Below, one piece after another: positions 118 through 61,690 of a stretch of 64,000 nucleotides of DNA. Position 1 is the stretch's first letter, and each line of letters starts with the position of its first letter. Source of the DNA: Neolewinella persica DSM 23188. Lineage in GTDB: Bacteria > Bacteroidota > Bacteroidia > Chitinophagales > Saprospiraceae. The translations under genes and the position numbers were made by a program. The DNA is taken from positions 131,399 to 195,398 of the forward strand of contig NZ_KB890413.1 of assembly GCF_000373105.1 (NCBI RefSeq), written 5' to 3'. The notes below the pieces were generated by a model, which worked only from the letters and a program-made list of their open reading frames with translations, had not been told where the DNA came from and ran no database searches.

Positions 118-867
118 ATGATCGAGCACATCGACGCCACAAAAGTTCTCTTCCTTGACATCGAAACCGTAAGCGGTAAACCTACCTATGATGATCTGGA
201 CGATACCTTCAAGTATCTCTGGGGCCACAAGGCTCCCAGTGTCCTCAAACGCTATGGCGAAGAGTTGACGGAGGAAGAGCTCGCCGATAGCTACATCGAC
301 AAGGCGGCTATTTTCGCCGAATTTGGTAAAATCGTCTGCATCAGCGTTGGCGCGGTGTACCGCGACAAGGACAAGCGACTAAAGATCCGGTTGAAATCCT
401 TTGCTAATCGCGATGAGAAAATTCTTCTGCAGGATTTCAGTGCGATGCTGGACCAGTACTACGGCAACATCCACAAGCAATTTATCTGTGGCCACAATAT
501 CAAGGAATTTGATGTTCCCTACATGTGCCGTCGCCTGCTGGTCAACCAGCTCCCCATGCCGAAGATGCTCGACATTGCGGGGAAGAAGCCCTGGGAAACC
601 AACCACCTCGTAGACACCCTGACCCTTTGGAAATTTGGCGACTTCAAATCCTATACCTCGCTCAAGCTATTGGCTGGCGTATTGGGCTTCCCCACTCCGA
701 AAGACGATATCGACGGTAGCCAGGTCGGCCGCGTCTTCTGGGAAGAAGACGATCTGGAGCGCATCGCAACCTACTGCGAAAAGGACGTTTTGGCGACTAC
801 GCAGTTGTTCTTCCGGTACCAGCTGAAGCCTTTGTTGGAGGATGATCAGGTGCAAGTAGCGGAGTGA
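118..867 (+). CDS. PolB-like 3'-5' exonuclease (DnaQ fold)
   Basis: Predicted 3'-5' exonuclease of the family related to the proofreading domain of DNA polymerase B (DNA_pol_B_exo2 type). All three exonuclease motifs are visible. Exo I is LFLDIET with D14 and E16. Exo II is GHNIKEFDVPY. Exo III is the YCEKDVLAT block near residue 220, with the Y-x3-D spacing. At 249 aa the protein is close to the length of stand-alone members, with no polymerase domain attached. The first ATG is used, and a TATCTTTA element about 10 bp upstream resembles a Bacteroidota -7 box. The stop codon lies inside the first repeat unit of the element at 862-1204. A role in DNA repair or nucleic acid turnover is inferred from the family; the substrate is unknown. 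Confidence 0.85.
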   Translation: MIEHIDATKVLFLDIETVSGKPTYDDLDDTFKYLWGHKAPSVLKRYGEELTEEELADSYIDKAAIFAEFGKIVCISVGAVYRDKDKRLKIRLKSFANRDEKILLQDFSAMLDQYYGNIHKQFICGHNIKEFDVPYMCRRLLVNQLPMPKMLDIAGKKPWETNHLVDTLTLWKFGDFKSYTSLKLLAGVLGFPTPKDDIDGSQVGRVFWEEDDLERIATYCEKDVLATTQLFFRYQLKPLLEDDQVQVAE

Positions 868-1204
868 GTCGCTGAGTTAGGGAGTTGGTGAGTGGCTGCC
901 GCACGGGAGTGCTCGCTCCGCTCGTTTAGGTACGATCTGTTCCTTCCACCGCTGCTCCTTAAAACCTTTCTTTGCATCCTGCGGCCCCGCCCTTATTAGT
1001 CTTGTAGTTTAGTAGTTGGTCGTCTTGTAGTGCTACCGCACATGGCTGCTCGCTGCGCTCGTTTGGTCGCGTACCATTAACTAATCCCCGATTCCATTAT
1101 TCTCTCATTCGCCAAGGCGAGCGCCCGAAGGGCGGCGAACGGCACCTGCGGTAGCCACTCACCAACTCCCTAATTCACCAACTCAGTGACTCAGTGACTC
1201 ACTA
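862..1204. repeat. MITE-like inverted-repeat element with octamer-phased ends
   Basis: This fills the whole gap between two convergent genes. GAGT occurs at 866, 874, 882 and 890; ACTC-type words occur at 1157, 1165, 1173, 1181, 1189 and 1197, so both ends step by 8 bp. Positions 874-903 and 1147-1176 are near-perfect 30-bp inverted repeats with two mismatches. Inside are a variant of the dispersed 18-bp head (972-992), a TAGT array at 997-1031, and two copies of a GCTCGCTGCGCTCG-type palindromic word (about 910 and 1047). No ORF is credible inside. The outer units overlap the stop codons of both flanking genes. Confidence 0.7.
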
Positions 1205-3331
1205 AGCCAGCACCTGATACACCACCATAGCCGAAACGTAAGCCAGCGCCGTCATGAACGTAAACTGAATGATCGGCCACTTCCAGCCGCCGGTCTCCCG
1301 TTTCGTAACGGCCAGGGTCGACATACACATCATGGCAAAGACGTAAAAAACCAGGAGGCTCCAGGAGGTCGCCTGGTTATACACCGGCTGGCCCGTACGC
1401 GGGTTAATTTCTTCGGCCATGCGGTCCCTGATGCGCAATTCATCGTCAGCACTGCCTACTGAATAGATGGTAGCCATGGTGCCAACAAACACCTCGCGGG
1501 CGGCAAAACTGGTAAACAACGCAATGCCTATTTTCCAATCATAGCCAAGCGGGCGGATGACCGGCTCGATGAATTTGCCGACGTGCCCTGCATAGCTGGC
1601 TTCCAATCTTTCACTGGCCAGCAGATTTGCGGCTTCCGCCTCATCAAGGTTCTGCTCTTCGGTGAGTTGTTGCGTAATCACCCCGGCCTCCTCCATAGCT
1701 CCCGTAGGGCCATAAGTTGACAGGGCCCATAACACGATGCTGATCAGCAAGATAATCTTGCCTGCTTCCACCATAAAGGTTTTCACCTTCTGCCAAACGG
1801 TGACCACTACGTTGCGCCAAACCGGCGTACGATAATCGGGCATTTCCAGCATCAGAAAACTGCGTTCGCTGGTTTTCAGCACCAGCTTAAACACCAGGGC
1901 CGACAACATAGCGGAGATAATCCCCAGAAAATATAAGCCGGCAAAAGCCAGTCCCTGGTAGCCAAATCCCCAAAAGGTTTCTTCGGGTACTGCAAAGCTG
2001 ATGAGGATAACGTAGACGGGGATTCGCGCGGAGCAACTCGTCAGCGGTGTCACAAGAATAGTCAGTAATCGTTCTTTCCAGTTAGCAATGGTCCGGGTAC
2101 TCATGATGGCCGGAATGGCACAAGCGTGCCCGCTGATCAGGGCCACTACGGAGCGGCCGTTGAGGCCGAAGCGCTGCATCATGCTATCAAACATGTAGGC
2201 GGCGCGGGCCATATATCCCACTTCCTCCAGAATGGAGATAAAGAGGAAAAGGATCGCGATTTGCGGTACAAAAACCAGCACGCCCCCCAGACCGGCGATT
2301 ATGCCGTCGACCAGCAGGTCCGTCAGCCAACCGGCAGCCAGGTTTTCGCGCACGGCCGTTCCCATGTGTTCAAAGAACCATTCGATCCCGTCCATTGGCA
2401 AACTCGCCCAGGCGAACAATGCCTGAAAAAGAAGGAGCATCAGGCCAACAAAAATAATTGGGCCGAAAATGCGGTGGGTGAGGATCCCGTCGGCACGGTC
2501 GCTGGCAGAGGCCTTATCTCCGGCATAGCGCACCGTGTCTTGTACGATTGGCTCGAAAGCATCGTAGCGTTCCATCGTTTCCTCTACCTGCGCACGCAGG
2601 CTGTGAAACCCGTTTTTTACCCGGGCGTTCTGCACTTTATGGCGGAGTTGTTCGGGGATATGGCGCAGCCAGCTGGCGTGATGCGTGAGTAGTAACGCGT
2701 GGTAGTCGTTGCGGGCGGGAAGTTCCTGCCGAAGGTCTGCCAGGACATCCCGGGCGAGCGCGCCCGGCTCGTAGAATGGCTCTTCGGGCCGGTAGGCCTT
2801 GGGGTTGCGCAATAAGTTCTCGATGGCCTTTTTTAGTTCCTCTACCCCACGGCCTTCCCGGGCACTTACCGGAATCACGGGCACGGCGAGCTTTTTGCTT
2901 AGTTGAGCCACATCTACCTGAAGACCGTTTTCTCCGATCATGTCGGCCATATTCAACACCAGGATCATGGGAAGATCCAAATCCCGCAACTGGGTAAAAA
3001 GCAACAGGTGCTTGTCCAGCTTGGTCACATCGGCAACGTAAAGGATGGCGTCGGGGAAAAGATCACCTTCCGGGTTGGTTAGCTCCTGCACGACGAGGCG
3101 CTCGTCGAGGCTGGTTGGGTAGCAGCTATAAGCACCCGGGAAATCGACCAATTCCACGGGGGGAAGGTCGCCGATCTTCAGAATACCTGACTTCTTTTCC
3201 ACCGTTACGCCAGGGAAATTACCAATGCGCTGCCGCAGACCGGTCAGGAGGTTAAAAAGTGAGGATTTTCCGCTGTTGGGGTTACCGACCAGTCCGACGA
3301 CCGGCGCAGCATTTATTTGATCATTATGCAT
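1202..3331 (-). CDS. feoB: ferrous iron transport protein B
   Basis: Inner-membrane Fe(II) transporter with an N-terminal G domain. G1 is GNPNSGKS at residues 16-23. The NFPGVTVEKKSG switch region, the DFPGAYS G3 motif and the LNMADM G4 motif follow in order. After a helical spacer (about 170-270) come the Gate and Nucleos_tra/FeoB-C type membrane segments, including the conserved TSCSARIPVYVI stretch that lines the iron path. The 709-aa length is somewhat shorter than the E. coli protein but normal for the phylum. It overlaps feoA by 19 bp, so the two genes are probably translationally coupled. No FeoC-like gene is present. No Fur box was identified by eye. Confidence 0.95.
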   Translation of the reverse strand: MHNDQINAAPVVGLVGNPNSGKSSLFNLLTGLRQRIGNFPGVTVEKKSGILKIGDLPPVELVDFPGAYSCYPTSLDERLVVQELTNPEGDLFPDAILYVADVTKLDKHLLLFTQLRDLDLPMILVLNMADMIGENGLQVDVAQLSKKLAVPVIPVSAREGRGVEELKKAIENLLRNPKAYRPEEPFYEPGALARDVLADLRQELPARNDYHALLLTHHASWLRHIPEQLRHKVQNARVKNGFHSLRAQVEETMERYDAFEPIVQDTVRYAGDKASASDRADGILTHRIFGPIIFVGLMLLLFQALFAWASLPMDGIEWFFEHMGTAVRENLAAGWLTDLLVDGIIAGLGGVLVFVPQIAILFLFISILEEVGYMARAAYMFDSMMQRFGLNGRSVVALISGHACAIPAIMSTRTIANWKERLLTILVTPLTSCSARIPVYVILISFAVPEETFWGFGYQGLAFAGLYFLGIISAMLSALVFKLVLKTSERSFLMLEMPDYRTPVWRNVVVTVWQKVKTFMVEAGKIILLISIVLWALSTYGPTGAMEEAGVITQQLTEEQNLDEAEAANLLASERLEASYAGHVGKFIEPVIRPLGYDWKIGIALFTSFAAREVFVGTMATIYSVGSADDELRIRDRMAEEINPRTGQPVYNQATSWSLLVFYVFAMMCMSTLAVTKRETGGWKWPIIQFTFMTALAYVSAMVVYQVLA

Positions 3332-3639: not shown

Positions 3640-3754
3640 GCAAGAAGTAAAGAGATAAAAGGGAGAAGGGGGAAAGGAATAACCTTGATGTTTACCTCTC
3701 CTTTCTTCCTTTTCCCTTTCGTCCCTTTTTCAGGGCGCGGCCGCAGGTGCAGGG
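3640..3754. repeat. octamer-phased purine/pyrimidine inverted array plus head copy
   Basis: The left arm is purine-rich (about 3644-3680) and the right arm pyrimidine-rich (about 3695-3731). Each reads in 8-bp steps (AAAGAGAT, AAAAGGGA, then GAAGGGGG; on the other side CTCTCCTT, TCTTCCTT, TTCCCTTT). The arms are roughly complementary. An exact copy of the 18-bp head lies at 3734-3751 on the minus strand, directly against the array. The rest of the gap (3755-3854) holds only GC-rich short hairpins such as GGGCTTGAAGCCC and a partial head-like CCTGCGGCCCCG at 3831. Confidence 0.7.
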
Positions 3755-5369: not shown

Positions 5370-5376
5370 ACTGGGG

Positions 5377-5586: not shown

Positions 5587-7389
5587 ATGCGTTGGCTTTT
5601 ACTATCTCTTTTCCTCTCATTTACTACTTTGCTCACCGCTCAGAACAACCAGCTGGCGCAGCAATACTATCTCGACGGTGAATATGAGAAATCAGCGGAA
5701 CTCTATCTGGACCTGGCCAAAGAGAAGCCAGGCAACAGTTTCTATTTTGACCGTTACGTAACCAGCCTGCTGAAATTGCAACGGTTTGACGAAGCAGAAG
5801 ATGCGCTTAAAAAGCAGCTTCGTAAGCGCCCTGAAGAGGTGGCGTTATACGTTAAATATGGTCAGCTGCTGGAGGAAAAATTTGATGAAGCCGGGGCCAA
5901 AAAGCAATACCTCAAGGCCGTCGAAGAACTGCCATCCGACCAGTACCGCATTACTCAGCTGGCCAATGCCTTTATCGGAATGACGAAGTACGAGTATGCC
6001 ATAGCGGTGTATGAGAAGGGCGGTAAACTGCTTAAGAAAGAAGGATTGTTTAGTTATAATCTCGGTGACCTCTACCGTCGCAAAGGTGACGTGGAGCCGA
6101 TGATCAGCAACTACCTCGATGCGCTGAAAGCCCAACCAAAGCGGGAACGGCAGATCAAGTCCTACTTCCAGCGCTACCTCGATGAGGAGAGCTTGCTTGA
6201 AGCTCAGAAGCAGCTTTATGCCCGCATCCAGGAGGGAGACGACAAAGATCCGACTTACCCGGAAATGCTGGCCTGGGTTTTCATTCAACGAAAAGATTAT
6301 AAAGCAGCCTTGCGCCAGGCCCGCGCCCTGGACCGGCGACTGGACGAGAGCGGCGAACGCGTTCTACAAATTGGTCGGATGGCAGCCAACGCCAAAGATT
6401 ACGAAACGGCCATTAGTGCCTTCGATTATATTACGGACAATAAAAGTCCTGCCGATGTTTTCTATCTCGAGGCTAAGCGGGAAGGCTTGCTGACCCGTCG
6501 CCGGGCCATCACCGACGGTTATAACTATACGCGCGAAGACCTCATCATCCTGGAAACGGCTTACGAAGAGTTTCTAACTGAATTCGGCACCAACCCGGCA
6601 TCTGCTCGCATTGCCATTCAGTTGGCAGAACTGGAAGCGCTTTACCTCAACAATCTCGATAAAGCCGTAAGCATTCTTGACAATGTAGTAAAAACTCCAG
6701 GCGTACCGGATGACATTCAGGCGCGGGCCAAAATTGCCCTCGCTGATTACTACCTGATGCAGGGGGAGATTTGGGAATCCACCCTTTTGTACTCTCAGGT
6801 CGACAAAAAATTCAAGGAAGATATTCTCGGCCACGAAGCCCGCTTTCGCAACGCCCGGCTTAGCTACTTCCGGGGAGATTTTGACTGGGCGCAGTCTCAG
6901 TTTGACGTACTCAAAGCTTCCACTTCCCGCCTCATTGCGAATGACGCACTTGACCTTTCGGTATTTATCATTGACAACCTCGGGCTTGATACCAGCGCCC
7001 TTGCGCTACAGACTTATGCCGATGCGGAGCTGTTGGTATTCCAGAATCGCTACGACGAAGCCTTTGCTAAACTGGACAAGCTTAAAGTAGAATTTCCGGG
7101 CCATGAGCTGGAAGATGACATTGTGTACCTGAAGGCGCGTAGCTTCGTCAAACTTCGTCGTTACGACGAAGCCCTGGTCGCCTACCAGTCTATCCTCGAC
7201 AACTTCCCGGAGAGTATTCGCCTGGATAACAGCTTGTGGGCATTGGCCGGTCTTTATGAGAACCAACTTGGCGACAAAGCCAAGGCCCAGGAACTCTATG
7301 AGACGCTGTTTATCGACTACAGCGGCAGCATACTGGCGGTAGAGGCTCGGAAAAAATACCGGGAGCTACGGGGGGATGCGGTACAGTAA
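5587..7389 (+). CDS. exported tetratricopeptide repeat protein
   Basis: A 600-residue protein that begins with a clear signal peptide (MRWLLLSLFLSFTTLLTAQ) and is then almost wholly alpha-helical TPR repeats. Recognisable repeats include LAQQYYLDGEYEKSAELYLD near residue 25, VALYVKYGQLLEEKFDEAG near 80, YEYAIAVYEKGGKLL near 140, and FVKLRRYDEALVAYQSILD near 520. It probably acts as a periplasmic or outer-membrane-associated scaffold. Similar TPR proteins in the phylum support gliding, secretion or cell-envelope complexes, but nothing here fixes the partner. It is divergent from the glycosyltransferase. An octamer-phased array begins 5 bp after its stop codon. Confidence 0.8.
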   Translation: MRWLLLSLFLSFTTLLTAQNNQLAQQYYLDGEYEKSAELYLDLAKEKPGNSFYFDRYVTSLLKLQRFDEAEDALKKQLRKRPEEVALYVKYGQLLEEKFDEAGAKKQYLKAVEELPSDQYRITQLANAFIGMTKYEYAIAVYEKGGKLLKKEGLFSYNLGDLYRRKGDVEPMISNYLDALKAQPKRERQIKSYFQRYLDEESLLEAQKQLYARIQEGDDKDPTYPEMLAWVFIQRKDYKAALRQARALDRRLDESGERVLQIGRMAANAKDYETAISAFDYITDNKSPADVFYLEAKREGLLTRRRAITDGYNYTREDLIILETAYEEFLTEFGTNPASARIAIQLAELEALYLNNLDKAVSILDNVVKTPGVPDDIQARAKIALADYYLMQGEIWESTLLYSQVDKKFKEDILGHEARFRNARLSYFRGDFDWAQSQFDVLKASTSRLIANDALDLSVFIIDNLGLDTSALALQTYADAELLVFQNRYDEAFAKLDKLKVEFPGHELEDDIVYLKARSFVKLRRYDEALVAYQSILDNFPESIRLDNSLWALAGLYENQLGDKAKAQELYETLFIDYSGSILAVEARKKYRELRGDAVQ

Positions 7390-7393
7390 GAGC

Positions 7394-7556
7394 GTCAAGC
7401 AGTCAGGGCGTCAGACAATCCAGTGGGGATGCTCGCTGCGCTCTTGCGGGTATATCTTTTAAGCCGGGAAAAGTATTATTTTGAGCTCCGGGCGTACAAG
7501 CGCAGCTAGCTTCGGACACGGCCCTATTTGACTCCCCGACTCTTTGACTACGTGAC
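7394..7556. repeat. octamer-phased GTCA/TGAC inverted array
   Basis: GTCA lies at 7394, 7402 and 7410. (T/C)GAC, its complement, lies at 7529, 7537, 7545 and 7553. Both halves are in exact 8-bp steps. Between them is a GCTCGCTGCGCTC word (about 7431) shared with the element at 862-1204, and otherwise unremarkable sequence. The array starts 5 bp after the TPR gene stop codon. Confidence 0.65.
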
Positions 7557-8400: not shown

Positions 8401-11400
8401 ATGATAACCGGTATGAAAAAGCTTTCATTTTTCCTCACCCTGCTTCTTGTCCCGTTGGCCTGCACCTGCGTCCTCGCCCAAAATATTGGCCTGGACTTGA
8501 AACGCATCGTCCGCCTAACACCTGACGCACGCGAAATTGGCACCCCCGACAATAACCCGGCGCTCGACACCATCGTCCTGACACTCGCCTATTACGGTGG
8601 AATGCCCCATGCTGAAAGGATCGAAGCATTGCTGTCTGGCCCGGAATTGCTGGCGCATTATTCCGCTAACGGACCGATTCGGACTTACCTGCTCAACGAA
8701 AAGCTGGATCGCCTCCTGGAAGAATATATACCGGCTGAAGGGCTCGAAGTTCCTTCGCGCCTGGACGTTGCCGACCGGGGTGCCTTCCTGCGAAAACTGC
8801 CCGGAGCCGAGCTTTTCAGCCGGAATGGGATGATCGACCTAGGTAAAATCCACAAGGTATTCTCTGCCCCTCCGGCCGACAACCTGAGCCTGAAGGCAGC
8901 CGCCAAAAGCGCCAATGACCAACCTACCGGGCTTTCCACCTCCAACCTGGTGGGGTCTGCCCTGGCTGGCCTAAGCGACTGGATCAGCCGACGGGCCCAG
9001 GAAGAACTGACATACACTTTCCTGACTAAATTGCGGGAGGATATTCAACGTAACGACCTTAACTATCTGTTCCCACAGACCAACGAATTTCTGCCAACGC
9101 TCGACCTGCTGAACTACAAGTCCATCCTGCCCAGCATTCGCAGAGCTTTTGTGGAAGACCTCAACGCCATTGCTTATAATTTCGGCAATTACCTCGATGC
9201 CCGCAACGAGGCAACGTTCCGCGATCCGGTGGTGTACAACGTCTTTCTCATTTACCGTATTCTGGACCTGGAGATGAGGGACGTTCCGCTGGCTGACATC
9301 CTGGCCTTCACCTACGGCGAACTGGAACGCACGCGTATTGATACACGCTGCGCCATTGATCTCCGAATGACTAAGGTCGATACGACCAACCCCGGCTACC
9401 AGGCCATTCTCCGTGCCTTTGATGGCCTGACCGTGGCCAATGCCAACCTAAACAATCGTTTCCTGGCAGCAAGGGACACCCTGAGCGAGCGGCTGTTCAA
9501 CCCGCTGCTGACCGAAATCGAAGAGGACGACTTCGCCAGCGCAAACTTCGATGCTTTCTTTGGCCGGATCGACAGCATTTACACGCCGGTTGATAACGCC
9601 CGGCTTCCCCTGAAAAATAACTACTGGGAGACGAACAGCAACCCGCCCGCCACCGGCATTGTACAAGCCTGGCTCCGCGGAGAAGAGGCCTATGAATTCT
9701 ACGAGGCCTACCCCAGCCTGGCCCGGTTTGATCAGCTTTTCGGGCCTGACGCGGATAGGCTGGGCCCCAACCAGCTCCGTGCTGCCGGCCTTACGGCTGT
9801 GCGCGAAGTACTTGCTCACCGAAAACAATTGAACGCCTACGAGGGCCAACTGAATCGCCTGCGCGCAGCGCAGGAGGGCCTCCAAAACATTAGGACTGAA
9901 ATACGGAGTCATCGTGCAGAAGCGGCGCTAAAAGCCCAATCCCTGGCCGAGACGCAAGCTCAGCTGCTGGCCGATATTCATGCGGAAGCCAACGTCTCCG
10001 ATGCTCCCGCCCTGCGCATGCTGGCCCGGCTGACCGAAGAAATACTTCCGGAAACTAAAGCTGGGAAACAGCGCCTGGCCTCCATTCGTCAGCGACTAAC
10101 CGAGTGGGTAAAAGTGGAAGGCAATGCCAACTCCCCCCTGGCCGCAAAAATGCGGGAAGCACCTAAACAGGCCGACTACTTCATCCCCCTGCAGCCCGCC
10201 ATTGAAAACGCCAGACTGGCCTATAACGACCTGGCTGCTGCCGTGGAAACTTACAGCGCCAACCAGGCCGACAGCCTTGTCCGGGCTTACCATAACCTCT
10301 CCACCTTCGAGACCGTTTTCGGAATGGCACAGCAGGTGTTTTTTCTGCTGTCCGTCGATGCGACCAGCAACGACAGACTTTTTGTCAACAACAACGAACT
10401 GGCTTTATTCCAGACCAACGCCAATGCCCGGCAGCTCTTTGCCGGTATCGGCATGGAACGGCTGAACCGGGTTCCGGACCTGGGTGAATTTTCCACCAAC
10501 GGCGTTACGGGTTTCCTTTTAGACTTTGGCCGTTATCTTTCTGAATTCCAGGCGGCTTCAGGCGGTAAACCCATGAACGGGCTGTCTCCAAAGCAACGCA
10601 AGCGTATTGCAGCAGTCAGCTTCATTACTCAAACAATGGAAAGCCTGCTGGAGGCTCCGGTTTTCAACACGAACGGCCAGGCTGGGAAGCCTGCTTCTTT
10701 AATTGAGCGGTTCCCTGCCTTTTCGGAAGTTCCCGCAGTGAGCAAGGAATTGAATGAACTGTTCCGGCTCAGTCAAACGGGAGAATACCGATACGCCGTC
10801 GATAACCTACTGAACCTTCTCCGGTTATTCGACGTAGCGCCAACGGCCAGCAAAAAACAGCAGCGGCTGGAGGACCGGCGAGATAAGCTACAAAATCTCA
10901 TTGAAGATTATGTTGTCAACCAGGACAAAGACCTGAAGGCCATTGGGCTGGCACCGCCAAATGCGGCGGCCTTACCTCTGGTCGGCGACGATAACCGAGA
11001 CAAATTGCTGATCTCCCGGTACGAGGCGGAGTTGAATACGCTGGGGCTTGACGTTTACGCGAAGCAGGATGCCGCCAACAGCATCCGTGACCTGAAAGTC
11101 CGCCGAATCCAGGAAGAGTTACAATTGATACAAAAAAAATTACGGAAGCTGAACCCTCAACGGGTCGACCGTTTTCAGGAAAAGCTGTTTAAGTACGGCA
11201 CCTTTATGGCCGACGTAGCGGCGGCGAACGATCCATCAGACTTCGAGGCGGCACTTACGGCGATTGCACTTCCGGTAGGTAGTTCGCAGATTAAGCGGAA
11301 CCGGCCGTCGAGCCTCGAGCTCGGGGCTTACTTTGGTCTTGCGCTGAGTCGTGAGCGGTTAATCTTTCCTCCCAACATCAACACAGAAGGCATTAAGGAA

Positions 11401-11787
11401 GAAGATTTTGGCGCGGCCTTGTTTGTCCCCGTTGGGTTTAGCTACAGCCGGAATATCGGTGGGCGTAAATCCATCACCTTCTTTGGCTCTATTCTTGACC
11501 TCGGAGCCATAACCGCCTTCCGCCTTGGCAGCCAACCCGATGGGCCTGCGAGCCCCAGAGTGGAACGGTTGCCGGTATTCCGCCCAGCCAACGTCATTGC
11601 ACCTGGCTTTCACCTGATGTATAACTTCCCCAAATCTCCCTTCACCTTAGGGCTGGGGGTACAGGATGGGCCGAGTGTACGCGAGTTCACAATTGCCAAT
11701 TCCACTAAAGTACGGGAAGCCCGTAGCGTACGGGGGATGCTGACGTTGAGCATTGATGTACCGGTGTTTCGGTTTTTTAATAAGTAG
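8401..11787 (+). CDS. large exported protein of unknown function with barrel-like C-terminus
   Basis: A 1128-residue protein with a signal peptide; the ATG at 8413 (MKKLSFFLTLLLVPLACTC) may be a better start than 8401. The PLACTCVLAQ stretch has a Cys that could be lipidated, but a conventional cleavage after LAQ is equally possible. Residues about 60-980 are helical, with long charged segments (for example around 480-560 and 870-960) that look like coiled coils. The last 150 residues alternate in a beta pattern (LELGAYFGLALSRERL, FGAALFVPVGFSYSR, SVRGMLTLSIDVPVFRFFNK) and end in aromatic residues, which suggests a small outer-membrane beta structure. No family was recognised. The gene follows the 216-aa ORF closely. 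Confidence 0.65.
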   Translation: MITGMKKLSFFLTLLLVPLACTCVLAQNIGLDLKRIVRLTPDAREIGTPDNNPALDTIVLTLAYYGGMPHAERIEALLSGPELLAHYSANGPIRTYLLNEKLDRLLEEYIPAEGLEVPSRLDVADRGAFLRKLPGAELFSRNGMIDLGKIHKVFSAPPADNLSLKAAAKSANDQPTGLSTSNLVGSALAGLSDWISRRAQEELTYTFLTKLREDIQRNDLNYLFPQTNEFLPTLDLLNYKSILPSIRRAFVEDLNAIAYNFGNYLDARNEATFRDPVVYNVFLIYRILDLEMRDVPLADILAFTYGELERTRIDTRCAIDLRMTKVDTTNPGYQAILRAFDGLTVANANLNNRFLAARDTLSERLFNPLLTEIEEDDFASANFDAFFGRIDSIYTPVDNARLPLKNNYWETNSNPPATGIVQAWLRGEEAYEFYEAYPSLARFDQLFGPDADRLGPNQLRAAGLTAVREVLAHRKQLNAYEGQLNRLRAAQEGLQNIRTEIRSHRAEAALKAQSLAETQAQLLADIHAEANVSDAPALRMLARLTEEILPETKAGKQRLASIRQRLTEWVKVEGNANSPLAAKMREAPKQADYFIPLQPAIENARLAYNDLAAAVETYSANQADSLVRAYHNLSTFETVFGMAQQVFFLLSVDATSNDRLFVNNNELALFQTNANARQLFAGIGMERLNRVPDLGEFSTNGVTGFLLDFGRYLSEFQAASGGKPMNGLSPKQRKRIAAVSFITQTMESLLEAPVFNTNGQAGKPASLIERFPAFSEVPAVSKELNELFRLSQTGEYRYAVDNLLNLLRLFDVAPTASKKQQRLEDRRDKLQNLIEDYVVNQDKDLKAIGLAPPNAAALPLVGDDNRDKLLISRYEAELNTLGLDVYAKQDAANSIRDLKVRRIQEELQLIQKKLRKLNPQRVDRFQEKLFKYGTFMADVAAANDPSDFEAALTAIALPVGSSQIKRNRPSSLELGAYFGLALSRERLIFPPNINTEGIKEEDFGAALFVPVGFSYSRNIGGRKSITFFGSILDLGAITAFRLGSQPDGPASPRVERLPVFRPANVIAPGFHLMYNFPKSPFTLGLGVQDGPSVREFTIANSTKVREARSVRGMLTLSIDVPVFRFFNK
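8461..8478 (+). repeat. divergent copy of the 18-bp head in a signal peptide
   Basis: Reads TGCACCTGCGTCCTCGCC, two changes from the head consensus, and encodes CTCVLA at the end of the signal peptide. The match may be chance, but two other genes carry closer head copies in the same frame at the same place (20442-20460 and 26009-26026). Confidence 0.3.
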
Positions 11788-11793
11788 GTTCGG

Positions 11794-11868
11794 GTTATCA
11801 GGTTATCGAGTTGTCAAGTTGTCGGGTTATCCGCTTATCTCGACAACCTGACAACTCGACGATCTGAT
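11794..11868. repeat. octamer-phased inverted array, likely bidirectional terminator-type structure
   Basis: GTT(A/G)TC words lie at 11794, 11802, 11810, 11818 and 11826, with CTTATC at 11834. GACAAC-type words lie at 11842, 11850 and 11858, with GATTTC at 11866. All ten units keep one 8-bp phase across the centre. The arms 11797-11824 and 11841-11868 pair with only about four mismatches in 28 bp. The array exactly fills the gap between two convergent stop codons, which suits a bidirectional transcription end, although it lacks a clean U-tract. Confidence 0.75.
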
Positions 11869-11869
11869 T

Positions 11870-14072: not shown

Positions 14073-14250
14073 AGGGAGCAAAGGAGAAAGTGGCGCGGCC
14101 GCAGGTGCAGGGTAAGGTTTCAGTAGCAAATTAAAATCCCCTCCCAACCCTCCCCACGGGGGAGGGCCGGGGAGGAGATTTCATTTGGGCCATTAGGCGC
14201 CAATAACCTTGCTTTCAATACCCTTTACCCTTGCACCAGCGGCCCCGCCC
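14053..14250. repeat. inverted pair of heads enclosing a GC-rich hairpin
   Basis: Read on the minus strand, an exact head copy (14092-14109) is followed by an octamer-phased CTTTnnCC array that extends into the last codons of the MFS gene. About 120 bp on, a second head with two changes lies on the plus strand at 14231-14250, so the two heads face each other; their flanks (TTACCCTGCACC and TTACCCTTGCACC) also match. Between them is a strong G/C hairpin (about 14136-14181), AATCCCCTCCCAACCCTCCC paired with a GGGGGAGGGCCGGGGAGG strand. The remaining gap to 14400 holds no gene; the TonB receptor promoter should be there. Confidence 0.65.
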
Positions 14251-14400: not shown

Positions 14401-16785
14401 ATGCGTAAATTTTACTTGTTCACCCTACTATTGGTAACCCTGGCGACGAGCCTCGCCGCCCAGGAGCGTGTAACCGTCAAAGGCTACGTCAAAGACGCCA
14501 GTAACGGAGAAACCCTGATTGGTGCCACCGTATTCCTAAACGGCACAACCAAGGGCACAGCGACCAACGAATATGGCTTTTATTCCCTGACCGTCGACCC
14601 GGGCAACTACACCCTGGTGGCTTCCTACCTCGGCTATGAGGACCAGCGCAGGGACGTAGAACTCCTGGGAAGTTTCACCGTCGATTTTGAACTGGGAGTA
14701 GCCGGTACACTGCTCAATGAGATTGTGGTTACGGCCGAAGAAGAGGATCAGAACGTGCGGGAAGTTCAGATGTCGGTGGAAAACCTGGACATGTCCACCA
14801 TCGAACGGCTGCCAGCCCTGCTTGGTGAAGTTGACGTGCTGAGGAGCATTCAACTCCTGCCCGGGGTAAGCTCGGTAGGGGAAGGTGCCGCAGGCTTCAA
14901 TGTCCGGGGTGGATCTATTGATCAGAACCTGGTGATTCTTGACGAAGCGCCCGTATTCAACTCCAGCCACCTATTCGGTTTCTTTTCCGTTTTCAACCCT
15001 GATGCGGTGAAAGGTGTAAAGCTGTACAAGGGTGGCATTCCGGCCCGGTATGGTGGCCGCCTGTCCTCCATCCTTGATGTCCGTATGAAAGAAGGTAACA
15101 ACAAGCAACTTGAAGTGCAGGGAGGTATCGGCACCATTTTTAGTCGCCTAAGTGTGGAAGCGCCAATTGTAAAAGACAAATCTTCCTTCCTGCTGGCGGG
15201 TCGCCGTTCTTACATTGATGTATTGGCCGCACCATTTCTGGGCGATAACCTCTCTGGCACCCGGCTCAATTTCTATGATCTTACGCTGAAGACCAACTAC
15301 AAATTCAGTGATAAAGACCAGGTTTTTCTTAGTGGTTATCTGGGCCGCGACGTCTTCGCTCCCGGTGACCAGGCGGGCTTCAGCTGGGGTAACACCACCG
15401 GTACGCTGCGTTGGAACCACCTGTTTAACGACCGGCTGTTCAGCAACCTGACATTCTATTATTCCGACTACGATTACGCCATCAATTTTGGCGACGACCC
15501 AGAGGAGGATGCTTTTGATTGGGATGCAAGCATCGTCAATTTCAGTGCCAAGCCGGAGTTTAGCTACTTCATTACGCCCGATAACGTCGTCCGTTTCGGC
15601 GGGCAGGGCATCTACTATCGCTTTGAGCCGGCCAACGCCATTGCCGTCAGCGACGGAGAAGAGATAGACATCAGCATTAACAACCAGTGGGCGGTGGAAA
15701 GCAGTGTCTTCCTGGAGAATGAGCTAGGTTTATTAAAAGGAAAAGTCAAGCTCAACTATGGTCTGCGGGCCAGCTATTTTGCTTACCTGGGCGGTCGCCC
15801 CGTCTACGAATTTGGCGAAGCGCCTGCAGAGGGGCTTGGCCGGCCATTGACCGGCGTCACGCAAACGGAGAAAGGAGAAACCATTAAGAACTGGTTTAAC
15901 CTGGAGCCCCGGGCTTCCATTCAATACCAACTCAACCCAACCAGTTCCCTCAAGGCCAGTTACCAGCGGACGGCGCAGTACATTCATCTACTGAGTAATA
16001 CGACCGCTTCCATCCCGCTCGACATCTGGACCCCAAGCACCAACAACATTGAACCCCAACTGGCCGACCAGGTAGCCCTCGGTTACTTCCGGAACTTCAA
16101 GGAAAACACTTATGAGGCCAGCTTCGAGGTCTACTATAAGGACTTCAATCAGCTGATCGACTACGTAGATGGTGCAGATCTGGTGCTGAACGAGCTGGTG
16201 GAAGGCCAAACCATTGAGGGGGACGGCCGCGCTTATGGTGCGGAATTCCAGGTCAAGAAGGTCAAAGGACGTTTCAACGGCTGGATCAGCTATACGCTGT
16301 CGAAGACCGAACGGCTTACCCCCGGGGTAAACAACAACGAGTACTACCCCAGCCGGTTTGACCAATTACACAACTTCAACGTCACCGGTTTCTACGACCT
16401 GAGCGACCGAGCCACCCTGAGCGCCACCTTCGTTTATAATACGGGAACACCCGTTACGCTGGCCAGCAGCGGGTATTACCAATTGGGTTACTTTGTACCA
16501 CACAACGAGGGTGGCGGGCGCAACAATTTCAGAATTCCGGACTACCATCGCCTCGATGTTTCGGTAACGCTTGACCCCAAGAAAGAGAACGCCAATAAGC
16601 GCTGGAAAGGGCAATGGGTATTTGGGGTGTACAACCTTTATGGTCGGCGCAACGCCTTCACGATCTCGGGCACCCAGAGTGAGGGTCGGCCGGTCATCGG
16701 AACGCCGATCATGACCGAATCCAACCAGCTGAGCGTAGTGGGTAGCATCATCCCGAGCATCAGTTACAACTTCAAATTTAAGTAA
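14401..16785 (+). CDS. TonB-dependent outer-membrane receptor with CarboxypepD_reg-like domain
   Basis: Outer-membrane TonB-dependent transporter of 794 aa. The signal peptide is MRKFYLFTLLLVTLATSLAA. Residues about 23-110 form a carboxypeptidase-regulatory-like beta sandwich (VKGYVKDASNGETLIGATVF). A plug follows with LRSIQLLPGVSSVGEGAAGF, NVRGGSIDQNLVILDEAPVF and PARYGGRLSSILDVRMKEGN. The rest is a beta-barrel that ends in SISYNFKFK. The gene is followed at once by a DUF4249 lipoprotein, a pairing common in Bacteroidota. It is not a SusC type, since there is no SusD partner. The substrate is unknown. Confidence 0.9.
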   Translation: MRKFYLFTLLLVTLATSLAAQERVTVKGYVKDASNGETLIGATVFLNGTTKGTATNEYGFYSLTVDPGNYTLVASYLGYEDQRRDVELLGSFTVDFELGVAGTLLNEIVVTAEEEDQNVREVQMSVENLDMSTIERLPALLGEVDVLRSIQLLPGVSSVGEGAAGFNVRGGSIDQNLVILDEAPVFNSSHLFGFFSVFNPDAVKGVKLYKGGIPARYGGRLSSILDVRMKEGNNKQLEVQGGIGTIFSRLSVEAPIVKDKSSFLLAGRRSYIDVLAAPFLGDNLSGTRLNFYDLTLKTNYKFSDKDQVFLSGYLGRDVFAPGDQAGFSWGNTTGTLRWNHLFNDRLFSNLTFYYSDYDYAINFGDDPEEDAFDWDASIVNFSAKPEFSYFITPDNVVRFGGQGIYYRFEPANAIAVSDGEEIDISINNQWAVESSVFLENELGLLKGKVKLNYGLRASYFAYLGGRPVYEFGEAPAEGLGRPLTGVTQTEKGETIKNWFNLEPRASIQYQLNPTSSLKASYQRTAQYIHLLSNTTASIPLDIWTPSTNNIEPQLADQVALGYFRNFKENTYEASFEVYYKDFNQLIDYVDGADLVLNELVEGQTIEGDGRAYGAEFQVKKVKGRFNGWISYTLSKTERLTPGVNNNEYYPSRFDQLHNFNVTGFYDLSDRATLSATFVYNTGTPVTLASSGYYQLGYFVPHNEGGGRNNFRIPDYHRLDVSVTLDPKKENANKRWKGQWVFGVYNLYGRRNAFTISGTQSEGRPVIGTPIMTESNQLSVVGSIIPSISYNFKFK

Positions 16786-16868
16786 AGGTGGAAAGGAGAA
16801 GGGGAAACAAAGAAGCCGCGGCTTCTCCCCCTCCTCTCCCTTCTTTCCCTGTCCTCCCTTCCTCCTTA
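16786..16868. repeat. purine/pyrimidine octamer-phased hairpin
   Basis: Starts right after the receptor stop codon. The purine arm (AAAGGAGA, AGGGGAAA, CAAAGAAG) faces a pyrimidine arm (CTTCTCCC, CCTCCTCT, CCCTTCTT), with a perfect AGAAGCCGCGGCTTCT palindrome at the centre. It lies between two genes that probably share function, so it could trim or attenuate the downstream message rather than end it. Confidence 0.55.
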
Positions 16869-44184: not shown

Positions 44185-44187
44185 GGC

Positions 44188-44209
44188 TGGGTCAGGTTGT
44201 CGGGTTGTC
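44188..44209. repeat. short octamer array
   Basis: GTTGTC at 44196 and 44204, with a weaker TGGGTC at 44188, step by 8 bp. The core word equals that at 11794-11868. It lies just upstream of the lipoprotein start codon, and no complementary second half is seen. Confidence 0.45.
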
Positions 44210-44274
44210 GGATTTAATGAGGGTATTTTTTTGCGGAAGTGTTGCTTCCTCCTCGACGCACAGCGTCTCGCCCT

Positions 44275-56015: not shown

Positions 56016-57446
56016 ATGCCTCGTTTCTTCGTTCTAATTGCCTGTTGTGCCTGCTTATTCTCTACCTGTGTCGACGTAGACATTCCAGGCTCGGCGGAAG
56101 TCGTAAAAGAACGGTCAGCCCCCCCCAACATTATTTTCATCCTCACCGATGACCAGGGTTACGGCGACCTTTCCTGCTACGGTTCCTCCCGTATTTATTC
56201 CCCGAACCTCGACCAGATGGCCACCGAAGGGATCAAACTGACCAGCTTCTATGCATTTCCTTCCTGCTCACCGAGTCGGGCGGCGTTGATGACGGGGTGC
56301 TACCCACCCCGCGTCGGCATTCCCGATGTGGTGGGTCCTCCGGGAGTAGCCTGGACGGCCAATAAGCAATATGGCCTGCACCCACAGGAGACGACCTTGC
56401 CCGAGGCACTCAAATCCGTTGGCTACGTTACTGCGATGGTGGGAAAATGGCACTTGGGCCACTTTCCGGAAACAATGCCGCAAAAGCATGGTTTTGACCA
56501 ATTCTTTGGCCTGCCCTACAGCAACGATATGCTGCCGGAAAAAGGCTACGGGAACCTCAGCCTGATGCGGAACACGGATACGCTGGAGGTCAACCCCGAC
56601 CAAACCCAGCTGGTAAAACGGTACACCGCCGAAGCGTTGGACTTCATCCGCCAGAAACGCGACGTTCCCTTTTTCCTGTACCTGGCACACAGCATGCCCC
56701 ACGTCCCGATCTTCGCCTCCGACGATTTCCTGGAAAAGAGCGGACGGGGCCTCTACGCCGACGTGATCGCAGAAATAGACGCCTCCGTTGGCACCCTTCT
56801 GGCGGAGCTGAAAGTGCAGGGTATAGACGAAAACACGCTGGTAATTTTCACTTCAGACAACGGCCCCTGGTTAACCTACGGCAACCACGCCGGCAGCGCC
56901 GGCCCCTTTCGGGAGGGCAAGGGAACCACCTGGGAAGGCGGTATGCGGGTGCCGATGATCGCCCGTTGGCCAGGTAAAATCAGTGCGGGTAGCGTAAGCC
57001 ACCATCCGGCCTCCCTAACGGACATCCTCCCTACCCTCGTAAGCATTGCCGGCGCCGGGTTACCGGAAAAAAAGATCGATGGCCGGGACCTCACGGCTCA
57101 TTTAACCTCCCCTGCACCTGCGGCCGCGCCCCCACCCGATGCCCCCATGTGCTACTACCGATCCGGCAATCTTGACGCTGTGCGGGTAGGCAAATGGAAG
57201 CTCCACGTACCCCACAGTTTCCGCTACGTAGACATAGTGGGAAACGATGCAGTTTCGGGAAACTATGCCTACCGCGACACCGGATTGGAATTGTACGACC
57301 TGGAAGGTGACCCGGGAGAAAAGTACAATGTTGCCGAAAAATTTCCAGAAAAGACGGAGGAGTTACGGGCGCTGATCGAACGGTTACAAGCAGAAATGGA
57401 GACGGAGAAGCGGGCGCCCTTCCGGCCTGGTGAGGGAGTAAGTTAG
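56016..57446 (+). CDS. arylsulfatase-type sulfatase lipoprotein
   Basis: A 476-residue exported sulfatase. The signal sequence ends LFSTC, so it is probably lipid-anchored at Cys 18. The metal ligands D45 and D46 are in IIFILTDDQGYGDLSCYG. The formylglycine motif is C84-S-P-S-R followed by AALMTG. VGKWHLGH and LVIFTSDNGPW are the further active-site blocks. It should hydrolyse sulfate esters, perhaps on algal polysaccharides. It needs a formylglycine-generating enzyme, which is not in this window. Residues around 366-372 (PAPAAAP) are encoded by an exact head copy and look like an insertion in a loop before MCYYRSGNLDAVRVGKWKLH. Confidence 0.92.
   Translation: MPRFFVLIACCACLFSTCVDVDIPGSAEVVKERSAPPNIIFILTDDQGYGDLSCYGSSRIYSPNLDQMATEGIKLTSFYAFPSCSPSRAALMTGCYPPRVGIPDVVGPPGVAWTANKQYGLHPQETTLPEALKSVGYVTAMVGKWHLGHFPETMPQKHGFDQFFGLPYSNDMLPEKGYGNLSLMRNTDTLEVNPDQTQLVKRYTAEALDFIRQKRDVPFFLYLAHSMPHVPIFASDDFLEKSGRGLYADVIAEIDASVGTLLAELKVQGIDENTLVIFTSDNGPWLTYGNHAGSAGPFREGKGTTWEGGMRVPMIARWPGKISAGSVSHHPASLTDILPTLVSIAGAGLPEKKIDGRDLTAHLTSPAPAAAPPPDAPMCYYRSGNLDAVRVGKWKLHVPHSFRYVDIVGNDAVSGNYAYRDTGLELYDLEGDPGEKYNVAEKFPEKTEELRALIERLQAEMETEKRAPFRPGEGVS
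57113..57130 (+). repeat. exact head inside the sulfatase gene
   Basis: An exact copy, read as APAAAP in a loop between two conserved sulfatase blocks. It keeps the frame open. Confidence 0.85.
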
Positions 57447-57492
57447 TGAAGGAGTGAGTCACTGAGTGGCTCTTCAACTCAGAAACTCACTA
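57436..57492. repeat. octamer-phased GAGT/ACTC array at the sulfatase stop
   Basis: (G/T)AGT words at 57436, 57444 and 57452, then 57456 and 57464 after a half-step, face ACTC at 57477 and 57485. The array covers the stop codon at 57444-57446 and the gap to the next gene. The core is the same as at 862-1204. Confidence 0.6.
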
Positions 57493-57507
57493 TGGTGTTC
57501 CCCTCTC

Positions 57508-58560: not shown

Positions 58561-58610
58561 CTCATCAGGAGCTCTTGATAAAAGGTGACCACGGAGTGGT
58601 CTAACTTTTA

Positions 58611-58657
58611 TTTGCCCCGGATGAAAGGTCGAAAAGCGACCTTTTACCCGGGGTAAA
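58611..58657. terminator. long hairpin between convergent genes
   Basis: AAAGGTCG and CGACCTTT form a perfect inner stem around AAAAG, extended by CCCCGG and CCGGGG outer arms, with TTT and AAA at the ends. It lies between the convergent amine oxidase and kbl genes. A second short hairpin (GATCCCTCCGGGATC, about 58760) lies nearer kbl. Confidence 0.6.
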
Positions 58658-58810
58658 TGGTCATTCCTTAGCTTTTGCGGCACTTCGCGCCGCCATGTTA
58701 AAAACCCATTCTTAAACCCCGGGTTTCGGCATACCGCCTTACCCGTAGCAAATACAATTCGATCCCTCCGGGATCTATTGCATAGGAAAGCCAAAAAAGG
58801 TTATCGTGGT

Positions 58811-59998: not shown

Positions 59999-60046
59999 TT
60001 AGTAGAGAGTTTATATTTATGAGACTTGGCGCGCGTCTATAAGGTT

Positions 60047-61027: not shown

Positions 61028-61085
61028 GCTTAATACTGGATTAGAGCTGTCCAGTAAAATTAGGGCACGCCATGATTTCACGCTG

Positions 61086-61100
61086 CATTTTGACAAAATG
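61086..61100. promoter_or_regulatory. palindrome between tdh and the Lrp gene
   Basis: CATTTTGACAAAATG is a perfect 7-bp inverted repeat around one base. It lies 58 bp from tdh and 91 bp from the Lrp-type gene. Lrp/AsnC proteins bind AT-rich palindromes of about 15 bp, so it is a candidate site for the divergent regulator. Confidence 0.5.
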
Positions 61101-61191
61101 AGCGAATAATAACGGTTAATTGCAAATATTCCCGTTTTTTTACTCCGCAAAACAGTTGTCTGACTAACAATCCGCGAAAATTCTTGTGTCC

Positions 61192-61656
61192 ATGCAGTTA
61201 AAAATTGACGAAACAGACCTTATCATTCTACGCATCCTACAGGAAGACTCCAAGAAGACGGCCAAGGAAATTGCGGCACGCCTCAACCTGACGGCATCAC
61301 CCGTTTATGACCGGATCAAACGGCTGGAGAAGCAGGGGTTTATTAAAAAGTACGTGGTTATCCTGGATAAAAAGCTTTTTGATCTTCCGGTGACGGCCTT
61401 CTGTCAGGTCTCCATGCGGTACCACGATAAAACTTTCATCGAGCAGTTTGAGGACCAAATTCAGGCCCTGGAGGAAGTCCAGGAGTGTTATCACATGGCG
61501 GGGAGAGTGGACTTCATCCTGAAGGTTAACAGCCGGAGCCTTGAAGACTACCACAACTTTATTAAGAACAAGCTTTCTAAAATCGAGAACATTGGGGAAC
61601 TGAACAGCACCTTCGTACTGAAGGACATCAAGCATACCTCGGCGCTGAACATCTAG
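61192..61656 (+). CDS. Lrp/AsnC-family transcriptional regulator
   Basis: A 154-residue regulator. The N-terminal winged helix is DETDLIILRILQEDSKKTAK followed by EIAARLNLTASPVYDRIKRL. A RAM (amino-acid-binding) domain follows with AFCQVSMRYHDKTFIEQFED, VQECYHMAGRVDFILKVNSR and the closing STFVLKDIKHTSAL. A GTG two codons upstream (61186) is an alternative start. It is divergent from tdh-kbl, so it probably senses an amino acid such as threonine, glycine or leucine and controls that operon, as Lrp does for tdh-kbl in E. coli; this is inference. Confidence 0.92.
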   Translation: MQLKIDETDLIILRILQEDSKKTAKEIAARLNLTASPVYDRIKRLEKQGFIKKYVVILDKKLFDLPVTAFCQVSMRYHDKTFIEQFEDQIQALEEVQECYHMAGRVDFILKVNSRSLEDYHNFIKNKLSKIENIGELNSTFVLKDIKHTSALNI

Positions 61657-61690
61657 AGTGACTCACTCCTTCAACTACTCACTCATTCGG
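61656..61690. repeat. octamer-phased ACTC array filling a convergent gap
   Basis: ACTC at 61661 and 61677, with CTTC at 61669 and ATTC at 61685, keep an 8-bp step; a single GAGT lies at 61656. The array spans exactly the gap between the Lrp-type stop codon and the stop codon of the acetate kinase fusion. Confidence 0.55.

Follow-up and report, generated by a model that had tools for sequence, protein, structure and literature searches.

Introduction

Several gaps between genes in one 64,000-nt window of the Neolewinella persica DSM 23188 genome (the window being the whole stretch of DNA that was analysed) are occupied by short words that recur at steps of about 8 bp and return as their reverse complement, which raises the question of whether such tracts are signals at transcript ends or products of DNA copying. 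The initial annotation, which described octamer-phased inverted arrays at gene ends, is partly confirmed: the arrays are real, but their description needs correction. The reading developed here, given about an even chance of being right, is that these are intergenic fold-back tandem-repeat tracts, namely degenerate direct repeats of 7–9 bp (mostly 8), about half of them paired as inverted arms on either side of a spacer, which would be made and rewritten at the DNA level by slippage, arm-to-arm template switching and selection.

Period and abundance of the tracts

Sequence identity at fixed lags was computed over 41 stretches covering 853 kb of the source genome. Intergenic identity was 0.284 at lag 8 (0.271 and 0.265 at lags 7 and 9), 0.275 at lag 16 (0.263 and 0.258 at lags 15 and 17), 0.271 at lag 24 (0.257 and 0.260 at lags 23 and 25) and 0.263 at lag 32 (0.256 and 0.254 at lags 31 and 33), with smaller peaks at lags 7, 14 and 21. 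Coding DNA of the same 853 kb displayed only 3-periodicity, without excess at lags 8, 16, 24 or 32 (0.246 at lag 8). Array segments with a score of at least 10 were also counted against the mean of 20 dinucleotide shuffles, and amounted to 83 against 1.8 at period 8, 36 against 1.6 at period 7, 16 against 1.65 at period 9, 5 against 1.45 at period 10, and 2 each against 1.25 to 1.45 at periods 11–13; a masked run of N inflates these counts by about 1, in real and shuffled sequence equally. The expected lag-8 excess of intergenic DNA over coding DNA and over shuffles is thus present genome-wide.

Across 61 stretches (1.25 Mb), 175 arrays of period 7 or 8 were found in 179 kb of intergenic DNA and 14 in 1,004 kb of coding DNA, which corresponds to densities of 98 and 1.4 per 100 kb. 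An array of period 7–9 occurs in 190 of the 863 gaps of these stretches, and period 8 is the commonest (154 of 263 arrays). In a neutral sample, 232 of 281 gaps are array-free.

Loci in the window

For each locus, p values for the array and for the inverted repeat (IR) were obtained from dinucleotide shuffles, together with a separate z score for RNA folding. Two of the eight arrays initially listed are graded good. The first is a GTTRTC-word fold-back that fills the convergent gap at 11788–11869, between gene 8401–11787 and an AraC-type gene ending at 11870; it has an array score of 20, its 11794–11868 portion has array and IR p values of 0.005 each and a fold z of -7.3, and the tract has 68 BLAST matches listed in its own genome, counting itself and both strands. 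The second, at 862–1204, begins with a G-rich arm of the GAGT word (862–900, plus strand) that runs over the stop codon of the exonuclease-like gene 118–867, continues through a spacer (901–1156) in which GGCTGCCGCA and GCTCGCTNCGCTCG were recognised by eye as inner modules, along with TAGT-rich sequence, and closes with a C-rich, period-8 arm of the ACTC word (1157–1201, minus strand, array score 17.2) that ends at the stop of the feoB-like gene 1202–3331, which carries a Pfam FeoB_N match. The inverted-repeat arm at 865–903 pairs with 1147–1185, matching at 35 of 39 positions. Array and IR p values for this locus are both 0.016, the floor of 60 shuffles, and the RNA fold of 862–1206 gives a z of -8.5.

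Four further arrays are fair. A GTTRTC-word tract at 1–40, forward then reverse (TGTCGGGGTATCTAGTTGTC / CCGACAATCCGACAA), is cut by the window edge (array p 0.005, IR p 0.05). A purine-rich AAGG arm folds back on a CCTT arm at 3640–3731 (IR score 18, p 0.005; array p 0.04; fold z -2.3), and a similar purine-rich AAGG/CCTT fold-back at 16786–16868 follows the TonB-plug gene 14401–16785 (array p 0.025, IR p 0.04, fold z -1.6). The GAGT/ACTC fold-back at 57436–57492 overlaps the stop of the sulfatase gene 56016–57446 (array p 0.03, IR p 0.015, fold z -1.0). The locus at 7394–7556, whose GTCA arm follows the stop codon of the TPR gene 5587–7389, with a TGAC arm at the far side and GCTCGCTGCGCTC in the spacer, is weak as an array (array p 0.06, IR p 0.01, fold z -1.8), and the short GAGT...ACTC stretch in the 34-bp convergent gap at 61656–61690 has an array score of 0 and is not significant alone (IR p 0.05, fold z -1.35). 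One tract had been missed, namely an unpaired GTTGTC tract at 44185–44214 (plus strand) next to the predicted start of gene 43390–44184, which lies on the minus strand; the tract has an array score of 11.6 at 44191–44214 (array p 0.005) and no inverted partner (IR p 0.92). A search of Rfam 15 returned no matches at gathering score within the window.

Core words

The core word had been thought to differ at each locus. Nine core words in fact recur across loci, with 4 to 64 arrays per word, and a class of TCAG-core heptamers with otherwise variable positions comprises 18 arrays. The related proposal that selection or copying acts on spacing and not on sequence is therefore only half right, given these recurring words and the occurrence of some of them at two periods (GTTGCA at 7 and 9). 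Same-word pairs inside stretches total 17 against 24.6 expected, that is, no local clustering, although the test is weak because many stretches were chosen for one word. The sharing of words in trans without local clustering is unexplained by local slippage alone.

Within arrays, variation is concentrated in particular columns in 28 of 95 cases (p<0.05), which exceeds what uniform decay predicts; block duplication could give the same pattern. Perfect multi-unit arrays, such as five and a half units of AGTCTGGT and nine of CCGACAAC, suggest recent expansion by whole units.

Position and strand polarity

Of the arrays lying within 12 bp of a gene boundary, 54 belong to stops (826 in the sample) and 53 to starts (900 in the sample), so that the supposed special link to stop codons was not confirmed. 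What is nearly constant is the strand. Opposite arrays of the same word are arranged G-rich then C-rich (FR) in 68 array pairs and RF in 1, and among arrays within 30 bp of a gene the G-rich strand points outward in ratios of 59:7 at stops (1 tie) and 68:6 at starts (2 ties). In 18 stretches not chosen for arrays the ratios are 14:2 and 21:1 for stops and starts, respectively. The same polarity is found in divergent gaps (16:0 at period 8, 6:3 at period 7) and in convergent gaps (12:0 at period 8, 3:0 at period 9, 5:2 at period 7).

A polarity of this kind, with inverted pairing, was described for the GGGNATC heptamers of Xanthomonas and Nostoc, for which G-quadruplex formation was proposed (PMC4692102). 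For the present genome that explanation is largely refuted and scarcely credible, since at least four GGG tracts occur in just 12 of 261 arrays, and the polarity persists in GGG-free arrays, with ratios of 28:6 for those at stops and 33:4 for those at starts.

Another reading is that the tracts serve as arrays of binding sites for a DNA- or RNA-binding protein acting in trans, or as a translation-leader element, in which the C/A-rich strand right before the start is selected and the paired arm follows. A small common set of core words whose spacer positions vary would suit it, as would the start-side background, which already favours C over G in mRNA sense (outward skew 0.35), and a translational role was proposed for TAACTGA tracts by MacGregor 2015 (PMC4679880). 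The argC|argD junction lends it further support: in 6 of 13 same-genus species a period-8 tract lies 1–8 bp before argD, with the C-rich strand in all six, right before the same start codon. However, the words of these tracts differ between species. Moreover, convergent gaps, which have no starts, obey the same polarity, there is hardly any background skew at stops (0.04), and most gaps of the neutral sample contain no array at all. The binding or leader reading is thus considered unlikely.

Tests of a role in RNA

The transcript-end role suggested by the initial annotation would make the tracts RNA hairpins selected as terminators or 3'-end stabilisers, and the strong RNA folds of two window loci agree with this, as do strong inverted repeats in 82% of 22 array-bearing convergent gaps. 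However, stem mismatches on the transcript strand of 65 tandem array loci comprised 103 G·U and 100 A·C, with no wobble excess (107:115, 90:93 and 66:70 at other cut-offs), unlike the acceptor stems of 22 tRNAs used as control (15:0). The same test in the cyanobacterium Moorena bouillonii gave 27:26. A T-tract, scored as 5 or more T among the 8 nt after the hairpin, was present in 4 of 62 tandem cases and in 0 of 14 convergent ones, against a background of 5.5%. With starts adjoined as often as stops, and divergent gaps sharing the polarity, a transcript-end role is not supported and is regarded as distinctly unlikely. The tracts look more like products of DNA copying than like RNA signals.

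Inverted pairing and a proposed DNA-level origin

Partner arms have their word in common far more than permuted arms do, with a value of 0.577 over 32 pairs compared with 0.228 after permutation (maximum over 2000 permutations 0.379). Furthermore, an arm resembles the partner at its own locus more closely than it does arms of that word at other loci (z 5.1, mean percentile 0.72; 44 of 55 loci could be tested). The corresponding test in Moorena was not significant (z 1.5, 10 of 16 loci testable). Inverted repeats were surveyed in the 767 of 863 gaps that contain no N and do not exceed 400 bp. Repeats with a score of at least 16 were present in 52% of the 168 gaps with arrays and in 10% of the 599 without, and one shuffle of each gap gave none. 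Unpaired arrays are also common (126 of 261).

These features are consistent with a mechanism in three steps. Whole units would be gained and lost through replication slippage; template switching between the inverted arms (quasi-palindrome mutagenesis) would hold both arms to the same word; and selection would chiefly purge tracts that enter genes or spoil start regions, which, as proposed here, would leave tracts lying against gene boundaries. The polarity would follow if fold-back begins at nascent 3' ends rich in G/T or G/A, since such ends may self-mispair more easily than those rich in C/A; this reason is speculative. The slippage and template-switch steps are what we infer from the perfect arrays and from the likeness of each arm to its own partner, and on both grounds an origin of this type, also raised initially, fits better than a role at transcript ends. 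The argC|argD junction also speaks for this reading: the six period-8 tracts there are of different words, and 5 of the 13 species have a tract-free junction of 25–44 bp. On the other side, simple arm copying predicts a mirrored unit order, unless erased by slippage, and none was detected (37 loci, z 0.84, no locus below 0.05), in a test that is weak with 3–8 units. Template switching is an established mechanism for creating and mending inverted arms, and the likeness to the present tracts lies in this DNA-level creation and homogenising, although when taken alone it leaves the 8-bp tandem units, the common words and the strand polarity unexplained (PMC8794818 for the mechanism).

Two other DNA-level readings were weighed. 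Mobile fold-back (MITE-like) elements ending in arrays would account for inverted ends with intrinsic polarity, for recurring inner modules and for tracts at junctions that are short in relatives, such as the gap after tatC, which is array-bearing and 123 bp long in the source genome, and array-free and 49 bp long in two relatives (G002 and G009). Nevertheless, the end words of fold-back tracts differ between loci, one inner module was found by eye with different array words, and many arrays are unpaired, which makes such elements quite improbable. Alternatively, a hypothetical telomerase-like or terminal-addition activity could extend 3' ends at intergenic breaks with a few core words, which would place the same G-rich word on each side of a gap. 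G-rich arrays facing inward from both sides, degenerate words common in trans and arms that differ independently in the order of their units would all result, but two arms of one locus resemble each other more than they do arms with that word at other loci, and this activity is held to be very improbable.

Known systems and wider meaning

The remark in the initial annotation that it knew of no such description fails in general, since single-word heptamer versions have been published (PMC4692102; PMC4679880). In Xanthomonas and Nostoc sp. PCC 7120, GGGNATC and GGGGA(C/T)T heptamers are mostly intergenic, lie closer to the 5' neighbouring ORF in any orientation, and mostly occupy the non-coding strand in the 50 bp ahead of an ORF or the coding strand in the 50 bp past a stop; inverted convergent pairs number 70 and 75 in two Xanthomonas genomes, while few are described for Nostoc (PMC4692102). 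Polarity and inverted pairing are thus already known for one heptamer in Xanthomonas, with the same outward G-rich strand and convergent pairing as found here, and the present tracts form a variant in which the units are mainly octamers and at least nine core words stand in place of one word family of period 7. Neither GGGNATC nor GGGGA(C/T)T tandem pairs occur on either strand of the 61 stretches.

Direct repeats of TAACTGA, in turn, are known from Beggiatoaceae, Cyanobacteria and some Bacteroidetes. In one Beggiatoaceae genome they are mostly forward and right before start codons, with one inverted repeat reported; one Bacteroidetes set has them in reverse orientation directly after the stop, orientation is mixed in one cyanobacterium, and the nearest relatives of some loci lack tracts (PMC4679880). 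The polarity of the Beggiatoaceae and Bacteroidetes cases is that found here, and the TAACTGA repeats differ by their single word and period 7. Tandem TAACTGA pairs were likewise absent from both strands of the 61 stretches.

Two cyanobacterial systems are also similar. The STRR sequences of heterocystous cyanobacteria are degenerate short intergenic tandem repeats with several words per genome, as here, but with a period of 7 instead of 8. In the tRNA-Leu(UAA) intron of cyanobacteria, the P6b stem holds degenerate heptanucleotide repeats of more than one core class in two inverted arms, thought to vary through slipped-strand mispairing; these resemble the present arms but lie inside one structured intron and have period 7. 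A Moorena sample, taken as a stand-in for STRR, contained period-7 tracts of the same, less strict polarity.

One polarity rule therefore holds for many words, mainly at period 8, in one genome, and also in a cyanobacterium for its own words, which makes explanations bound to a single word, such as quadruplex formation or one regulator per heptamer, unlikely to be general. A broader and tentative idea, which we regard as rather doubtful, is that a strand-polarised DNA-writing process not bound to one sequence acts in intergenic DNA across phyla (Bacteroidota, Cyanobacteria and perhaps Acidobacteriota). It would lay down 7–9-mer tracts from a small species-specific vocabulary on either flank of a gap, so oriented that the G-rich strand is the 3' strand pointing inward. 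With time one word would give way to another at a given junction, while the period, position and polarity of the tract would persist. The differing words at one orthologous junction offer a means to measure the rate at which tracts of this kind are rewritten, and the wobble test helps to tell DNA-level from RNA-level upkeep of stem-forming repeats by sequence alone. If such a polarised process exists, the single-word repeats already in the literature would be examples of it.

Sampling and gene prediction

The window was located in a genome of 7.08 Mb in 84 contigs (the source genome), which was sampled first as 41 stretches (853 kb) and later as 61 stretches (1.25 Mb, 863 gaps of at least 20 bp), namely the window and 60 more, 42 of these 60 having been picked for GTTRTC arrays. 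The window and 17 other stretches (404 kb) serve as the neutral set. Here, an array is a degenerate tandem repeat of period 7-9, its core word read on the G-rich strand, and arms are two inverted arrays around a spacer; G and L handles denote compared genomes and fetched stretches, respectively. Genes were predicted with a simple dicodon model and start sites may be wrong: judging by relatives, the predicted tatC start lies about 35 codons too early. Window 30772-42924 is a single reading frame, open for about 4,050 codons.

Periodicity, core words and polarity of the arrays

The 8-bp spacing noticed in the initial annotation proved real when the lag autocorrelation check was run. Across the 853 kb, lag-8 identity reaches 0.284 in intergenic DNA; lags 16, 24 and 32 peak as well, and 7, 14 and 21 do so to a smaller extent. 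Coding DNA has no counterpart of this excess and shows 3-periodicity only. Array segments numbered 36, 83 and 16 at periods 7, 8 and 9, against fewer than 2 in shuffles, and counts were near chance at periods 11-13. Over the 1.25 Mb, period-7 and period-8 arrays have a density of 98 per 100 kb in intergenic DNA versus 1.4 in coding DNA, and in the neutral set at least one array is present in 49 of 281 gaps. The eight places listed by that annotation fared unevenly, two being strong and four fair, with one weak and one unsupported.

Fixed simple rules assigned the arrays to the words GTTRTC (64 arrays in 51 gaps), GTTGCA (23 in 21), TCAG (18 in 14), AGTCA (15 in 11), AAGG (11 in 9), GAAT (10 in 10), TAGTC (9 in 8), TTGG (6 in 6) and GAGT (4 in 4), leaving 100 of 261 arrays outside the classes, a number of them visible variants. 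GTTGCA arrays have period 7 or 9 and TAGTC arrays 7 or 8, so that neither the word nor the spacing is constant by itself. In 28 of 95 arrays, variation is concentrated on particular columns. No sign of same-word clustering was found inside 20-kb stretches, in a weak test, many stretches having been picked for GTTRTC.

What the arrays share is a polarity, being G-rich outward from the nearest gene. Of the arrays no more than 12 bp from a gene boundary, 49 of the 54 at stops and 49 of the 53 at starts obey this rule, as do 33 of 35 and 40 of 40, respectively, when only period 8 is counted; period-7 arrays within 30 bp are less strict in the source genome (29 of 39; obeying to violating, 14:3 at stops and 15:6 at starts). 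For stop-nearest arrays the rule is weaker at any distance (82:34) than within 30 bp (59:7). Paired arrays within 30 bp show no exceptions (39 at stops, 23 at starts), and unpaired ones mostly obey (20:7 and 45:6). In a check for a link to promoters, TAnnTTTG was found between array and start in 16 of 136 start-side arrays lying within 150 bp of the start.

At starts, one of the arms could be fixed by a leader requirement, and the array-masked background skew over the first 20 bp is clear at starts (0.35) and almost absent at stops (0.04). However, convergent gaps, which have no starts, follow the polarity too: period-8 arrays within 30 bp obey it in 12 of 12 cases there, as in 16 of 16 in divergent and 61 of 64 in tandem gaps.

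Inverted arms and other modules

The inverted-repeat scan covered 767 gaps of up to 400 bp without N, and a repeat scoring at least 16 was found in 52% of the 168 gaps with arrays and 10% of the 599 without; the shuffles gave no such repeat. Counted as pairs rather than independent loci, opposite arrays of the same word in one gap have the G-rich array first (FR) in 68 cases and second (RF) in 1, the order being weaker for different words (32 and 8). Word agreement between left and right arms lies far above permutation, and an arm is fitted better by its own partner than by same-word arms at other loci (z 5.1). Mirrored unit order between arms was not measurable (z 0.84), which does not bear out simple arm copying with unit order preserved; some loci do have the look of a direct inverted copy, for example window 865-903 versus 1147-1185.

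Other elements were noticed as well. The module GCGGCCGCAGGTGCAGG is exact at window 3737-3753, 14095-14111 and 57111-57127, and the window holds 12 matches with up to two mismatches (nine of them near) against 0.01 expected. It forms inverted pairs in stretches L022 and L028, and variants immediately following the tatC stop were seen by eye in G004, G008, G011 and G012; unlike the array words, this module seems common to the genus. Another inner module, in which GGCTRCCGCA precedes GTACCGTTCGC or GCTCGCTNCGCTCG, was recognised by eye at the inner end of arms built of different array words (window 895-925, 1030-1065 and 7427-7445; L037 10176-10452; L041 9322-9667). Window 14130-14185 holds a CCCCTCCCAACCCTCCCCACGGGGGAGGG hairpin that lacks long octamer arrays, and a hairpin family, TTGTTCCCCGGCACTTGTGCCGG, with nearly perfect arms and loops of 9-14 nt, occurs in gaps of L018, L021, L022, L030, L068 and L074. 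In the convergent gap at L010 1633-2060, where part of the sequence is masked, a block containing ATTCTCGATT heptamers recurs six times at distances of 73 to 96 bp, and the divergent gap at L096 6376-6530 (G002) carries a long tract of GGTTGCA heptamers 14 bp upstream of a start.

Corresponding junctions and other lineages

The argC/argD junction was compared in 13 species of the genus, from 20 genomes searched. A C-rich period-8 array ends 1-8 bp upstream of argD in 6 of the 13, its units resembling GACAACTC in the source genome, ACCAACAG in G009, CCAAAAGACTAACAGA in G002, CCTTATCTC in G001 and CCCCTTAA in G008, and reading ATTCACCC in G006, where the array is short (score 7); G009 and G002 have a left arm in common that is recognisable by eye. 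No array is present in the 25-44 bp of G004, G005, G010, G011 and G012, and the gaps of about 120 bp in G003 and G007 hold fold-backs of other sequence (by eye) and at most one score-6 segment. At the tatC junction, GTTGCA heptamers occur in the source genome and G003; 8 of the 9 other species having it show 38-55 bp without arrays, and G007 shows 114 bp without. These two comparisons indicate that tracts come and go, their words differing while place and polarity stay. At the alanine-dehydrogenase junction the downstream gene is kept in 3 of 12 species, and arrays were scored in the source genome only. A fold-back matching the best locus, window 11788-11869, was seen in none of seven orthologous gaps inspected (L050-L055, L057), among which L057 alone has a short array.

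The GTTRTC triple pattern was found in 3 of 60 genomes, with 141 overlapping matches in the source genome, 225 in G023 and 3 in G006; the remaining sampled relatives have other words or few arrays, G014 having none in 40 kb. With small counts, G023 (5:0 at stops, 6:2 at starts) and G002 (4:0 and 1:1) are in line with the rule. Beyond these relatives, three units of GACAACC were found in 83 stretches when a collection of species genomes was scanned, with Algoriphagus, Moorena, Limnofasciculus and one assembly from the acidobacteria among them. Moorena bouillonii has 154 period-7 arrays in 300 kb, and its period 7-9 arrays follow the rule more weakly (41:7 at stops, 16:5 at starts), with FR and RF orders of 29 and 8 for the same word and 35 and 15 for different words, and with 18 hairpins G-first, 8 C-first and 1 tied. 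Acidobacterial loci gave 8:2 and 3:0, and the ratios were 2:2 and 2:0 at four loci from cyanobacteria. Results for Algoriphagus and kin are mixed: loci picked for GACAACC arrays gave 3:2 at stops and 6:2 at starts, with FR and RF orders of 11 and 4 (same word) and 35 and 13 (different words), and five arbitrary stretches held one near-boundary array, which goes against the rule.

Relation to known repeats and upkeep of the arrays

Known repeats include the cyanobacterial STRR and the heptanucleotide stems of the tRNA-Leu intron. For GGGNATC-type heptamers of Xanthomonas and Nostoc, one study reports the same position and strand rule, with inverted pairs in Xanthomonas and a proposed quadruplex link (PMC4692102). 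TAACTGA tracts before starts are described, in another, for Beggiatoaceae and a few Bacteroidetes, one set being reversed after a stop; there, heptamer repeats are said to possibly reflect polymerase slippage (Mrazek 2007, as reported in PMC4679880). No description of octamer versions in Saprospirales was found among the matches listed in a literature search made largely without subscription papers, and none of the ten papers listed there for repeats in Lewinella names that genus. The layout of the arrays is partly described before; its cause is not.

If the stems were kept for their RNA, G·U would be expected to prevail over A·C among mismatches on the transcribed strand. The two numbered 103 and 100 at 65 tandem array loci, 74 and 78 in 64 non-array inverted repeats, and 27 and 26 in Moorena stems, versus 15 and 0 in the control, the acceptor stems of 22 tRNAs encoded in the source-genome stretches. 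The part in transcript ends considered by the initial annotation is not supported, and a terminator role is rejected: wobble bias is absent, no T-tract follows the array stems in the source-genome stretches, and arrays are equal at starts and stops. A quadruplex role is also rejected for the source genome. Fold-back priming from G-rich 3' ends, offered as a proposal only, would yield the rule everywhere. The best-supported reading attributes the arrays to a process that rewrites tolerated intergenic sequence at the level of DNA.
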